DNA of 64,000 bases, taken from NCBI GenBank assembly GCA_963920705.1, contig OY987233.1:9969459-10033458 (forward strand), in the 5' to 3' direction. Made by a program: the position numbers and the translations under genes. This document shows, one piece after another, positions 9,397-50,175 of this stretch. The notes under the pieces were generated by a model. The model was not told the origin of the DNA and searched no databases. It saw nothing but the letters and a program-made list of their open reading frames with translations. Position 1 is the first letter of the stretch. The number at the start of each line of letters is the position of its first letter. This DNA comes from Odiellus spinosus (Eukaryota > Arthropoda > Arachnida > Opiliones > Phalangiidae).

Positions 9397-10583
9397 ATGA
9401 ACTTTTTATTAAACGCATTCCTTCGCGATGAAGCTTATAACCAAATTTGTACACGACTGCAAAGTGTTGTCCTCACGGGGCCTAAACTATTCTTATCTTA
9501 CAAAAAACAACGTTTAAATAAAGGCGAAAACGAAGAGACTAATATCTCCCTTAAGTGCTTTCAATTGGTTCAATCTCGGCTCTGCAGCAGACGCCCATGT
9601 GTTAAAGCCACGCGGTTTATTTTGGAACTAGACTAACTCGTGATCCATTGGGAACTATACGTAGCTTTTACGATTAATTTACGACGTCGAACAAACTTGT
9701 CATATTATTTGACGTGAAACAGAATTTAGCTCGACATAAAAAGGGAATGTGGAAAAGATAAATATACATTTAATTAAAAAAATATACAACTTTTGAATTT
9801 ATTTTCAGAACCTTTACATTTACGATTTGAATAATATTTCCACATATTATAGGCGATATTTAAGCGTTTAAATTAAATTTTAAAGTTGGGTTTGGTTTGA
9901 AATTGAGTGTTTAGGGTGAATCCGGGTGAATCATATTAATACTTCAGCCTTTTACTTCGCTATCTACATGGCCATACTACGTCATCACTATGGGTCGCGT
10001 GATTTTGCAATTGTCTACAGTTAATTCTCGCGCTGGCACGTGATAAGGCCGCTTGCGCGCGTTTTTTTTTTTTTTTTTCGTTAAGATACGTTCACACTAT
10101 ACTCTTTGAAACCGTTTTATAACCGATTCGAATATTCAAATCGACTCTTTTGATCCAAGGACCACACGGGCGACCCCAAAATTTTATAAATTGACCTTTC
10201 CAACAGGGTTCAAAACGGTAGAATTCATATTGTGACAGCCTCACTTTATATTCACTATGTTTCAGCCAAATCTTCTAATATTCGCGACATTTATCACGCT
10301 AGGAAGGTATTTATCAGTAACATACTGTCATACCAAGCATTTTTTTCATAAGCCTCGTTCGCTTATCACCAGCCAATATCTTTTTTATATTCTCCTTGAA
10401 AGAAAGACATGGATCATTTTATTGGCAAATGATTTGTCCTCTACCAGTCGACCTCTCTAGAATGTTTTCTAAACACTAAGTTATACCTCCTCCGAGTATT
10501 ATAAAGAGATAATGTCACCTTATTTTTTCAAGGATTATAGTTTTCAATTTTATATAATGCAAAATGGAGTACAGGTTTCTGGA
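9397..10583. other. Non-coding stretch with repeat fragments
   Basis: No gene. A partial family D segment lies around 9965-10080 (TACGTCATCA, then TCGCGCTGGCACGTGATAAGG). A possible family E end (ACGTTCACACTAT) follows at 10086, and a GTGACAGCCTCACTTTA block at about 10235. Confidence 0.4.
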
Positions 10584-24991: not shown

Positions 24992-25064
24992 GGGCCAATG
25001 GCGCAACGGATAACGCGTCTGCCTACGGAGCAGAAGATTCCAGGTTCGAATCCTGGTTGGCTCG
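24992..25064 (+). tRNA. tRNA-Arg (anticodon ACG)
   Basis: A 73-nt cloverleaf. The acceptor stem GGGCCAA pairs with TTGGCTC (one G-U), followed by discriminator G. The anticodon stem TCTGC/GCAGA encloses loop CTACGGA, giving anticodon ACG at 25025-25027, expected to be edited to ICG and to read CGU/CGC/CGA. The T arm CCAGGTTCGAATCCTGG contains the RNA polymerase III B box, and the D arm region TGGCGCAACGG the A box. No intron. A T-run (TTTTTT) at about 25071 should end transcription. It resembles animal tRNA-Arg(ACG) closely throughout, so it is probably functional. Confidence 0.97.
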
Positions 25065-29019: not shown

Positions 29020-31491
29020 ATGGGCAGGGAGGACAGAGCAACTTGGAAAAGCAACTATTTCCTGAAACTAATTGTGAGTCTGATAATTTCAATCACCTCT
29101 TAAACGAATAGTTCACCCACGTTTGACTCAAATGATACTTAAACTGTGAGCCAATTTGGGCGGTTTTCTGCCTAAATTGGATCCAGTTAATTGTAGTGCT
29201 GGGAGCTGTCATTATACAGTCAATTCTCAAACTGCGGTATCATAGAATAACCATGTCCCGGTCTTCTGACTGTGAGGGCAAAATCTTGCATATTCCATAA
29301 CCTTTACAAAGTTCCTCGCGAACAGTTATTGTAGAGATAAACCATGCGAAGTACAGTCATTAAGTATAGGCAAAATTTTCATATCAAACTCTTGGTATTT
29401 TAATTCCATAACCACAACAAAAATGTTAATTTTTCCTACAGCAACTTTTAGACGAATTCCCAAAATGTTTCATCGTTGGGGTAGACAATGTCGGCTCGAA
29501 ACAAATGCAACAGATTCGTCAATCCCTTCGCAAGAACGCAGTTCTCCTTATGGGAAAGAACACAATGATCCGTAAAGCAATCAGGGGTCATTTGGAAAAC
29601 AATGCGGCGCTTGAAAAGTAGGTTTTCGTGACAAATAAATCTTATTACTCGCATAAATGATGACAAACCGTAGCCGAATCCTTTAACAATCCAGAGCTAG
29701 AAATAGCGGAACCTACTGGAATGTTTTAGGTTTACTGTTGAAACTAAAGCTTGCCCAAAGCTGTCTGATGTTTAATTGAAATTCATTAACCAATTTAAAA
29801 AATCCACGAATCTAACACTTTAATCTTCTTTTCTTAAGGATTCTCCCTCACATCAAGGGAAACGTTGGGTTTGTTTTCACCAAGGAAGATTTGACCGATA
29901 TCCGTGAGAAAATCCTTGAAAATAAGGTAAATTAATCTCTCAAACCCTGGATTCCTTGTCTTTTCGAACTATCGACGCTTTGGAATCGTGAGACTGGTTA
30001 TTTATTTAACCAGACTCCGATTTTTAGCAGTGACGGGAGCTGTCTCTCGATACAGTCTATTCCCTATACTGCGGCGTCGTAAATCAAACCTGTCCCGGTT
30101 TTATTTGTTTAAAACTGGAGGGCAGAAACCACGCATATTCCATAGACACTACGAAGCTACTAGTTAGCGATAATCGTTGAGTAAAACCATGCGGTGTACA
30201 GTTAATTTTATTAAACAAATATTTGAACCTTAATTAACGCTCAAATTTTGTAAATCAATCAAAAGGTGAAAGCCCCAGCTCGTGCCGGCGCTTTGGCCCC
30301 TTTGGATGTATTGATTCCACCACAAAACACTGGTTTGGGTCCTGAAAAGACCTCTTTCTTCCAAGCTTTGCAAATCCCAACCAAGATCTCTAAGGGAACC
30401 ATTGAAATCTTGAACGAGATCCATTTGATTAAGAAGGAAGAACGTGTCGGAGCTTCAGAAGCGACTCTTCTGAACATGTTGAACATTTCTCCGTTTTCGT
30501 ACGGATTAAAGATTCAACAAGGTATGTGGACCTTTTACATGATTGGTTGATTAGATCCCATTATAGTTGATTGTAGAGTTTTATTGGAACTTCCTTTATT
30601 TAAAGGCGCTTGATTCTTTACTAGCCCATTTTTAATTATAAATATTCTTGGGTTGATAAAATCTAGGCGCTAGAGTAATAGTGTTACCGCTCCACGTTGT
30701 ATGTTATATCAGTAGCATAGACAACACTATTTAAGGTGCAAACAATTTATTTTACAATTAAACTTCTTTATAAAGAAATTCTTTAGGAGGAAAGAACCCA
30801 TTTTTAGTTTCCAGGCCTTTGTTTGTAGATGACATAGGGTTCGACGAAGTATTTGGTTCAATGACTTGTGATGAAATACTTGTCCACTATATCTGCAAAG
30901 CCAAGGCAGGCAGAGCTTTAGAGGACTAACAATGGACAGCTACATTATCCATATAAGCAGTGACCATGCGAAGCAAAGGCCTAGCAATTGTATTAAAATG
31001 GGTTATTTCCCCGCCCCGACAGAATCTCAGTAAAACTAGGTTTTGCCGCAGTGTTTCGTACGTAAATATAGATTTCCATAGACCATATCTGTAATTAAAT
31101 TTCAGTATATGACTCTGGAACCGTCTTCTCTCCCGAGGTCTTGGACATCACCGATGATGATTTGAAATCAAAGTTTTTGTTAGGCGTGATGAACATCGCT
31201 AGCGTTTCTTTGCAAATTGGTTACCCAACTTTAGCTTCGGTACCCCACTCCATCGTTAACGGATTGAAGAATTTGATCGCTATCGCCGTTCAAACTGACA
31301 TCGAGTTTAAGGAAGCTCAGATGGCCAAGGAATATCTGAAAGATCCATCCAAATTCGCGGCTTTAGTCGCGGCCGCTGCTCCCGCCGCTGGAGACTCCGG
31401 TGGCGGAAAGGCGGATAAAAAAGAAGAGAAGAAGAAAGAGGAGTCTGAAGAAGAGGAGGATGATGACATGGGATTTGGTCTCTTTGATTAA
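29020..31491 (+). CDS. RPLP0: 60S acidic ribosomal protein P0
   Basis: Stalk-base protein of the large ribosomal subunit. It binds 28S rRNA and anchors the P1/P2 dimers that recruit translational GTPases. Five coding exons: 29020-29073, 29442-29617, 29839-29926, 30266-30521 and 31106-31491. They join in phase into 319 residues, the usual length (human 317). The protein starts [14 protein letters not shown]. Diagnostic stretches include [57 protein letters not shown] and [18 protein letters not shown]. The C-terminal tail is acidic and ends [10 protein letters not shown], the conserved P-protein signature bound by elongation factors. A further non-coding exon (about 28686-28732) lies upstream. 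An AATAAA at 31547-31552 serves as the poly(A) signal. Introns 2, 4 and 5 host H/ACA snoRNAs, listed separately. Confidence 0.97.
29151..29358 (+). ncRNA. U17/snR30-type H/ACA snoRNA, copy A (RPLP0 intron 2)
   Basis: About 208 nt, the vertebrate U17 (SNORA73) length. The 3' domain carries both family-defining motifs opposite each other in an internal loop: m1 ATATTCCATA from 29290 and m2 AAACCAT at 29339-29345. They are enclosed by stem TTGCAT/ATGCGA, and the RNA ends with an ACA box (ACAGTC, 29353-29358). The 5' part starts with a strong hairpin (CCAATTTGGGC paired with GCCTAAATTGG). AGAATA near 29245 can serve as box H. U17 pairs with 18S rRNA precursors through m1/m2 and is needed for early 18S processing cleavages rather than for pseudouridylation. 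It would be released from the spliced intron. Function is inferred from the motifs. Confidence 0.9.
29992..30203 (+). ncRNA. U17/snR30-type H/ACA snoRNA, copy B (RPLP0 intron 4)
   Basis: Second U17 copy, about 212 nt. m1 (ATATTCCATA) begins at 30135 and m2 AAACCAT is at 30184-30190. The closing stem is CGCAT/ATGCG, which differs from copy A's TTGCAT/ATGCGA by paired changes, so both copies keep the structure. The end is ACAGTT (ACA at 30198-30200). The 5' hairpin is CTGGTTA/TAACCAG. Shared blocks with copy A include GGGAGCTGTC, ACTGCGG and TGTCCCGGT. Sequence between these blocks has diverged widely, so the duplication is old and both copies appear selected. Confidence 0.9.
30605..30747 (+). 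ncRNA. H/ACA box snoRNA, copy 1 (RPLP0 intron 5)
   Basis: Classic two-hairpin H/ACA layout. Hairpin 1 has lower stem GCGCTT/AGGCGC and upper stem AGCCCA/TGGGTT. Box H is AGAGTA (ANANNA). Hairpin 2 has lower stem AATAGTG/CACTATT with inner pairs TTGT/ACAA and ATGTTA/TAGCAT. The ACA box at 30742-30744 is followed by three nucleotides (ATT). The 5' strand of the second pocket, ACCGCTCCACG, is the likely rRNA guide; I could not name the target. Not U17: it lacks m1 and m2. Close copies lie in RPN2 introns 2 and 10. Confidence 0.85.
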
Positions 31492-47945: not shown

Positions 47946-50175
47946 TTAATCATCTCCAGGCATTTCTTCATCTTCTATATTCATTTCGTCTAACATTTCT
48001 TGCAAAGTTATTTGAGGAGCACCTTCATCATCCGTCATATCATCTAAATCCACCGCAGTTTTCTCGCGATCTAAGAAACAATTATTTTAGTCTACAAACT
48101 GAATCTGCAAAAAGAATGCCTAACTTACCAAGATATATGTTAACATTCTGTCTATACGCCTGATCTTCTTCCAAATCATCCAGAAATTCTACGTAATCTC
48201 GATTTGCGCTGCTAGTGTCAGTTTCCTCGTCAATATTCAATCTCTGCAACTTCCACTTGCGTTTACGTTGACGAGACACTTCATTGCTATATACTTTCTT
48301 CACTATGATCTAAATAAGAAGTGTTTCAGTTCGCAGGGACGTTGTACTCAGTCTTAAAACCTTTTTGCATCGAACTTACAACATCTGGGATCCGTTCTCC
48401 TTTCATCTTATCAAAATTACTATCGTTTACGTTTGAATTGGCCAAATCAAAACCCATAACAACATCCCCTGGTTTTAAAAGATGTCCCAAATGTGTACGG
48501 CAATGTTTTTGATCTTCATCCATTCCTAATTGGCTGGAACGAACCAACCAAACGTCAGCCAAGGAGTGTTTACTAGAAGTTGGACCCTGACCGGAAAATG
48601 TGTGCCGCTGATTATGAAAAATTGGTTCCACATCCATTACAGTATATTCCGTATATTGTTTGCGAGAACAAACGCTGACAAATGGATTTCTCCAGAAAAT
48701 ATTGCTTGGAACTTCGGCGACTGAATTGAGAAAAGAGTTTTACTAAGAGAAATTTTTCGCATTATCTGAACTTGTAATCCAACCTTGTAAAGAGTTAGGA
48801 TCAATCAAATGAATTGAATTGGTAACTCTAGCGCAAATGCACAACTGACCGATGTTTCCTAATGAATGAGCCATAGTTTTGCTCAAACAAACGATATCGT
48901 CCTGAAAAGAACTTGCTTTTAGTGTATAATCGAGATTAGTCAAAGACTCTAAATTCTGATCAATTACTTTGCAAATTGGAACTATTTCAACAGAGAAAGT
49001 ATGTTTGTAGTTGAAGGTATTGTTGTGTACGTCATGCGATATTAATTGTTGCGCAGTTTGGTAACGGCATGGGACGACAGTTTGAAAGAAATCAACTAAT
49101 TTCCTCGCTTCATCTTTCTTCGCGAAGAAAAAGTCCAATCCGTCTTAAAATAAAAAGATTTTTAAGTTAATTAAGGCTAATTTTAGGGTTGGGCAAGTAC
49201 TTGATTATATTGTCAAGTACTCAATCAAGTCTTAGACCCAAGCTTGCACTCAATTAGAAGAATTGAAGAACTCTTAGACCTAGGCTCAAACTTTTGGAGA
49301 CTTGCACACCCCTAATGAAATTAAAGGTCTATTTACCATGACATGCTTTAACGTTCAAACAATTTGAATGTGCTCGATGTCTTAGAATGAGTTGTTCCAA
49401 GTAGTAAAAGGTTTTCTTGTGTTCAGTCTGAAATTTTAAGTTACAAACATGAAACAACCTTAAAAGTGGTTGAGGGATAATATATAACACCCTACTTTTT
49501 GCCTAACTTGAACGAGAGCTCTCCAGAAGTCTTTAGCTTCAACTCTGTGACAAGTTTCACACATTTGATGGTTAATGACAAATTCTACAACAAATACTTG
49601 TTGCAAAATTGCTCCACCAAATACTTCTTTCTGGATGGTAAGCTTCACTTTGATTCTTTTAGAATGAGGTTCAGTCCAGACGAAACCAGCGTCAACTAGT
49701 CTAACCTATTTTAAATCATTTAAGAGTTAATTACTTCTATCTCCTCTAATTTTTCATTTCAAGATAACATCTTACTTTACTTAACCCCTTAAGTTTTTTC
49801 AAACATAAAGCCAACAGCTCCCTCGATTCTAAGGAGCAAAAAATCCATTGGGATGGTGGTTGCAAATACCGTTCGCATCCTTTGCAAAAATAGAGTGTTC
49901 CCTGTTTGGGTATGCCTTCGGATATGTCAACTTTGGTTCGAAGACAGGCGACGCACATGTTCGCCGGATTTGGTTCGACTAAGGTACCGCATTCGCAACA
50001 CAATCTAGGGGAAAGTTAATTTTAAATTTGGTTAAAATTGAAGGATCTGATCCTTCTTGCTATCAGTATCATCATATCATGATGTTGCCACGTGACATTA
50101 ACCAAGGCTTAATTCAACTTATACTTGCATTTTTCCAGCATTTTGTACGCAATCTTCGGGTGGTAAATATTCCAT
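47946..50175 (-). CDS. NMD3: 60S ribosomal export protein NMD3
   Basis: Adaptor that binds the pre-60S subunit and the export receptor CRM1 to carry it out of the nucleus. Nine exons: 50175-50129, 50004-49776, 49705-49496, 49427-49337, 49143-48968, 48901-48784, 48720-48380, 48309-48129, 48070-47946. They give 505 residues (human 503). The N-terminal zinc-binding cysteines are present: ILCCECG, CVACLRTKVDISEGIPKQ, YFCKGCERYLQPP and CETCHRVEAKDFWRA. Other marks are LESRELLALCLKK, DVHNNTFNYKHTFSVEIVPIC, RTHLGHLLKPGDVVMGFDLAN and the basic RQRKRKWK. The C terminus is acidic, with ITLQEMLDEMNIED resembling the leucine-rich export signal. Intron 1 needs a GC donor (AT|GCAAGT) to keep frame. Intron 5 is only 66 nt. 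AATAAA follows on the minus strand at 47927-47922. Confidence 0.95.
49185..49320. repeat. Family G repeat in NMD3 intron 4
   Basis: Starts GGGTTGGGCAAGTACTTGA and ends GGAGACTTGCACACCCCTA. The two ends are loosely inverted, and CAAGTACTCAATCAAGTC repeats the core. About 130 bp, filling most of this short intron. Confidence 0.55.

Follow-up and report, generated by a model that had tools for sequence, protein, structure and literature searches.

The region described here lies in a 64,000 nucleotide (nt) stretch of the Odiellus spinosus (Opiliones) genome, called the window in this text (assembly GCA_963920705.1, contig OY987233.1, positions 9,969,459 to 10,033,458). The window carries RPLP0, the gene for the ribosomal protein uL10/P0, and introns 2 and 4 of this gene very probably encode small nucleolar RNAs (snoRNAs) of the U17/snR30 box H/ACA type; we put this assignment at about nine chances in ten. 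The five coding exons of RPLP0 give an open frame of 319 residues once spliced. Two splicing combinations give an open frame, and the one chosen retains QLLDEF. Residues 1–319 match uL10/P0 chains and the last exon corresponds to Pfam Ribosomal_60s. A single RPLP0 locus is found in the source genome at E ≤ 0.001. Coordinates of the gene, the two introns and the parts of both snoRNA copies are collected in Table 1.

Table 1. RPLP0, its two snoRNA-bearing introns and the elements of U17/snR30 copies 1 and 2 (positions in the window; 18S positions are those of the source genome)
Feature	Position	Strand	Basis or remark
RPLP0 coding region, 319 amino acids	29020..31491	+	exons 29020-29073, 29442-29617, 29839-29926, 30266-30521, 31106-31491
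RPLP0 intron 2, hosts U17 copy 1	29074..29441	+	GT..AG splice sites
RPLP0 intron 4, hosts U17 copy 2	29927..30265	+	GT..AG splice sites
U17/snR30 copy 1, ~229 nt	29130..29358	+	RF00045 match; fold z -4.08
Copy 1 left arm, stem closing 5′ domain	29132..29139	+	partner 29236-29243; fold
Copy 1 H box AGAATA (ANANNA)	29244..29249	+	sequence; directly after 5′ domain stem
Copy 1 internal hairpin	29254..29280	+	fold
Copy 1 m1 UAUUCCAU	29291..29298	+	complementary to 18S 806-813 AUGGAAUA, 8 Watson-Crick pairs
Copy 1 m2 AAACCAU	29339..29345	+	AAACCA complementary to 18S 843-848 UGGUUU
Copy 1 ACA box	29353..29355	+	sequence; aligned to SNORA73 ACA; 3 nt, then likely 3′ end 29358
U17/snR30 copy 2, ~233 nt	29971..30203	+	RF00045 match over 29972-30203; fold z -4.19
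Copy 2 left arm, stem closing 5′ domain	29973..29979	+	partner 30073-30079; fold
Copy 2 H box AAATCA (ANANNA)	30081..30086	+	sequence
Copy 2 internal hairpin (copy 1 has a shorter one)	30090..30125	+	fold
Copy 2 m1 UAUUCCAU	30136..30143	+	complementary to 18S 806-813
Copy 2 m2 AAACCAU	30184..30190	+	AAAACCA (30183-30189) complementary to 18S 843-849
Copy 2 ACA box	30198..30200	+	sequence; aligned to SNORA73 ACA; 3 bases, then likely 3′ end 30203

A first-pass annotation of this DNA, made from the letters alone, had pointed to m1, m2 and a terminal ACA in introns 2 and 4, and all of these are located in both copies. ATATTCCATA is found only at 29290 and 30135 in the whole window, both strands included, with AAACCAT downstream at 29339 and 30184. 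Relative to the m1 consensus AUAUUCCUA, the core AUAUUCC is present twice and is followed by AUA instead of UA; the pairing core is retained and lengthened. The m1 sequence here is AUAUUCCAU, whereas 14 of 14 organisms in Table 1 of PMC7601244 show AUAUUCCU with A, U or G as the next base. Thus an m1 with CCAU falls outside that table.

In a search of the window, the Rfam model RF00045 (SNORA73) matches positions 29211–29358 of copy 1 (62 bits, E = 8.2e-14) and 29972–30203 of copy 2 (46 bits, E = 2.5e-9). A search of the source genome (443 Mb in 286 contigs) with the same model scored 29 out of 9353 first-look candidates, and at E ≤ 10 the two copies alone matched (E = 2.7e-12 and 8.4e-8). Used as DNA queries against the genome, copy 1 and copy 2 each retrieve only themselves. 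Because the candidates scored were 29 of 9353, a strongly diverged extra copy could exist elsewhere in the genome. The two RF00045 matches and the single RPLP0 locus support, at the level of sequence, RPLP0 as the U17 host in the source genome, and the earlier proposal of RPLP0 as host in this lineage is supported for that genome. A third, decayed copy was considered in intron 5, where ACCATGCGAAG, also present on the m2 side of copy 1, is found again at 30963 (30963–30978). It was rejected, as the two-copy model gives no match there up to E = 10. The best match of the two-copy model elsewhere in the window, at 10495–10577 (+), is weak (16.7 bits, E = 0.049).

The 18S ribosomal RNA (rRNA) sequence used for comparison was taken from the source genome and confirmed by Rfam, with the register given by the small subunit (SSU) model, which aligns the rm1–rm2 stretch with the consensus GCAUGGAAUAAU. 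In both copies m1 is complementary to 18S 806–813 (8 bp). The m2 sequence is complementary to 18S from position 843 onward, over 6 bp in copy 1 (AAACCA) and 7 bp in copy 2 (AAAACCA). Yeast rm1 and rm2 are positions 801–806 and 836–841, six nt each (PMC9176245); the homologous six-nt sites here are 808–813 and 843–848. Yeast snR30 shows an m1 core (UAUUCC) and an m2 (AAACCA) equal to those found here, and the rm1-to-rm2 offset in 18S is equal as well. The yeast rm1–rm2 fragment primer, from C798, is CATGGAATA (PMC9176245). The primer shows that GGAAUA is preceded by AU in yeast 18S, too; we read a CCUA m1 as ending at six pairs and the CCAU form as adding two. As a control, an 8+6 match with the m1–m2 spacing to any part of 18S was counted and occurs at 63 of 127,860 window positions (both strands). 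Two of the 63 are at 806/843 and are the two U17 copies; a nearby one is at 814/852 (35907, minus strand). Additional contacts with 18S were also sought, with the copies cut as 29151–29358 and 29972–30203. The longest complementarity is 9 Watson-Crick pairs in copy 1 and 11 in copy 2, lengths reached by 193 and 44 of 200 shuffles, respectively. As these are no better than shuffles, no extra contact is claimed.

Predicted secondary structures of the two copies diverge in the upper 3′ hairpin and are otherwise built on one plan. Copy 1 cut at 29145 gives a fold z-score of −2.19, but from 29130 an extra 8-bp stem appears (29132–29139/29236–29243) with z = −4.08 and none of 200 shuffles as stable. 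The start of copy 1 was moved to ~29130 because the stem closing the 5′ domain is gained and z changes from −2.2 to −4.1; the start at 29151 in the first-pass annotation is about 20 nt short. ATGATAC, from the left arm of this stem, is present once in 29074–29150. Copy 2 shows a matching 5′ stem (29973–29979/30073–30079, z = −4.19, 0/200 shuffles as stable). Both optimal folds consist of hairpin 1, hairpin 2, the H box, the internal hairpin, a closing stem adjacent to m1 and m2, and ACA plus 3 bases.

In the consensus fold the closing stem has seven pairs and a bulged G, CUU+GCAU/AUGC+G+AAG in copy 1 and CAC+GCAU/AUGC+G+GUG in copy 2, with two of the seven pairs differing on both sides between copies. 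Folded as a single sequence, copy 1 prefers the six-pair UUGCAU/AUGCGA stem of the first-pass annotation (−10.5 vs −9.2 kcal/mol for the bulged form). A closing stem with paired changes, as noticed earlier, is present, and it has two readings, the bulged seven-pair consensus and the six-pair optimum of copy 1. The upper 3′ hairpin of copy 1 folds like the family model, with m1 and m2 on the basal side of the 3′ pocket and 16 nt from the pocket top to ACA (optimal fold, hand count); the neighbouring register of the consensus fold gives 18 nt. The range given in PMC7601244 is 14–16 nt. Copy 2 in the homologous register, which is not its optimal fold, forms 6 of 8 upper-stem pairs, and there too the pocket top lies 16 nt from ACA (hand count).

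An alignment of the two copies has 221 columns and shows 63% identity, and the repeats D1, D2 and D4 common to introns 2 and 4 fall inside the snoRNA segments. Hairpin 1 was omitted from the covariation count because its sequences are unalignable. Ten alignable helix segments contain 50 pairs: 36 are unchanged, 9 are changed on both sides, 3 show single changes that still pair, and 2 are broken. Pairing survives in each of the nine double changes and, overall, in 12 of the 14 variable pairs. The coincidence of changes on the two sides has a one-sided Fisher p of 4e-6; this figure comes from two sequences and is flattered by the choice of helices from the folds. In the 5′ outer stem, three of seven pairs are changed on both sides in copy 2 relative to copy 1. 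Two of the nine double changes are in the bulged closing stem, the non-optimal single-sequence form in copy 1. Omission of that segment leaves 7/7 double changes that pair (p = 6e-5); omission of the closing segment and the upper stem leaves 6/6 (p = 1.5e-5), and of the closing segment, upper stem and tip 4/4 (p = 5e-4). When the outer stem alone is left out, 6/6 pair (p = 3e-4). In the 3′ part, with 24 pairs, the observed counts are reached by 8 of 500 shuffles.

Several observations on the motifs, the model scores and the 3′ hairpin of copy 2 weigh against the U17/snR30 assignment. The m1 sequence ends in CCAUA, not CCUA; CCAUGC, which overlaps m2, is complementary to 18S 804–809 by 6 bp in both copies and might pair there just as well; and the rm1–rm2 stretch of the source 18S shows no gain in fold stability over shuffles. 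The SNORA73/snR30 model search proposed with the first-pass annotation does return both copies at low E-values, but both scores are below the RF00045 gathering score of 74. Of the two joint refuting conditions named there, the lack of an above-threshold hit applies at the curated cut-off alone. RF00045 at E ≤ 10 also matches in 4 of 14 control genomes, in none of them above the curated score. The bare pair of UAUUCC and AAACCAUGC with a 27–57 nt gap is found at 16 genomic places vs 20 for a reversed control. Since the spaced pair is not rare genome-wide, the motifs alone are insufficient for a U17 claim, and the count speaks for chance motifs within AT-rich introns. However, the covariance E-values, the fold z-scores, the paired changes and the 18S control, where the two copies are the only matches at 806/843, together refute a chance origin. 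It is also very improbable that the RNAs are ordinary H/ACA pseudouridylation guides with incidental U17-like motifs: every H/ACA guide has H and ACA boxes and a pocket, but here the match extends across the SNORA73 model. The U17 identity first suggested rests on the covariance model (highly significant, though below the gathering score), the complementarity to 18S at the site known from yeast, the H and ACA boxes, the common 5′ domain, the internal hairpin and the m1/m2 stem. At curated cut-offs, Rfam over the window reports tRNA alone; a search at the gathering score thus misses both U17 genes.

The remaining adverse points concern the 3′ hairpin of copy 2. Both broken pairs sit in its upper 3′ stem, as two mismatches in the homologous register, and this stem is absent from the full-length optimum. 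In the isolated 3′ hairpin the homologous form has −6.0 kcal/mol vs −10.9 for the best fold, a gap of 4.9. These points, with the lower covariance score of copy 2 (46 vs 62 bits), would be expected if copy 1 alone were functional and the intron 4 copy a decaying paralogue. This is considered unlikely, as m1, m2, H and ACA of copy 2 are intact, its 5′ domain is stable, and the double changes, which include three in the 5′ outer stem, still pair. The paired changes support the maintenance of both copies, as had been proposed, in so far as two sequences can indicate it, with the broken pairs and the unfavourable 3′ hairpin of copy 2 on the other side.

As U17/snR30 genes, the two introns would act as known for this family. 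Splicing of the RPLP0 pre-mRNA would free the introns, trimming would yield RNAs of ~230 nt, and these would be bound by dyskerin/Cbf5, Gar1, Nop10 and Nhp2. Trimming of intronic U17 out of the excised intron and binding of the four H/ACA proteins are described in PMC7601244 and PMC12095548. The RNAs would then dock on expansion segment 6 (ES6) of the pre-18S rRNA by m1/rm1 and m2/rm2 pairing. Docking would hold ES6 in a premature fold on which the early 18S cleavages depend; with pairing on the basal side of the pocket, no pseudouridine would be made. In PMC7601244 and PMC12095548, U17 pairs with ES6 at the basal side of the pocket, makes no pseudouridine and prevents premature ES6 folding.

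Vertebrate U17/SNORA73 (RF00045) is, as here, intronic with several copies per host, and Table 1 of PMC7601244 gives U17 lengths of 203–222 nt where full length is stated. The vertebrate hosts named in PMC7601244 are U17HG beside RCC1 and the Xenopus S8 gene, whereas the host here is RPLP0; U17 within ribosomal protein introns was thus already known from Xenopus. Yeast snR30, in contrast, is an independent 606-nt gene transcribed by RNA polymerase II (PMC7601244), not an intronic sequence of ~230 nt. Introns of Drosophila ribosomal protein genes also host snoRNAs (27 genes, PMC2246290). The introns of the sponge RPP0 (RPLP0) gene are in the same host, but the snoRNA identified there is a box C/D type (SNORD83-like), not U17 (PMC3412847). 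The same paper describes the duplication of a snoRNA from one intron to an adjacent one within a single host gene. The U17/snR30 family itself is well known, and the RPLP0 copies add members to it. The new details are the RPLP0–U17 host pairing and the m1 ending in CCAU, which lengthens the rRNA helix. No earlier report of U17 in RPLP0 was found in the literature searched (titles and starts of abstracts, among the matches listed, mostly without subscription papers).

A more far-reaching reading is tentative and, in our estimate, rather unlikely. RPLP0 may be the sole U17 host in this lineage; its two copies would have separated long ago, with most of their differences in the 5′ domain and the upper 3′ hairpin, and would share an m1 helix lengthened from six to eight pairs. 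Docking on ES6 might then be tighter than in yeast and vertebrates, and release might perhaps have to be stronger. If so, one 60S-stalk gene would couple the supply of a 60S protein to 18S processing, possibly together with an intronic box C/D guide for 18S (below). Apart from this reading, the independently drifting copies with their lengthened predicted m1–rm1 helix form a natural test of the docking strength that the SSU processome tolerates.

Intron 3 of RPLP0 shows a candidate C/D snoRNA at 29657–29768, with a C box ATGATGA at 29657 and a D box CTGA at 29765. The sequence TTGCCCAAAG, which ends on the fifth base upstream of the D box, is complementary to 18S 262–271 (10 Watson-Crick pairs), and the guide is predicted to aim at 18S C262. 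The window contains 12 C-to-D pairs, 7 on the plus strand and 5 on the minus strand, and the intron 3 candidate alone has such a guide, with ~0.1 expected by chance (hand estimate). The Rfam C/D match over 29655–29769 is at chance level (E = 1.5).

Other features of the window are a tRNA-Arg (acg) gene at 24992–25064 (+) and an open frame with NMD3 domains (Pfam) at 48743–49144 (−), ~17 kb from RPLP0. NMD3 is a 60S export adaptor.

Observations were also made on the rRNA genes of the source genome. In the 28S copy of L023 (2410–6097), Rfam matches only model positions 359–1124, in three pieces, and a 754 amino acid reverse transcriptase frame follows this copy on the opposite strand. The L023 28S is apparently interrupted by a retroelement. 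L019 (9.9 kb) contains 18S and 5.8S and gives no 28S match. Genome-wide, an 18S 30-mer used as a query has 104 occurrences with up to one mismatch, and a 28S 19-mer has only 9 exact occurrences. Either disruption of many 28S copies or a 28S that differs in the stretch of the 19-mer may account for this.
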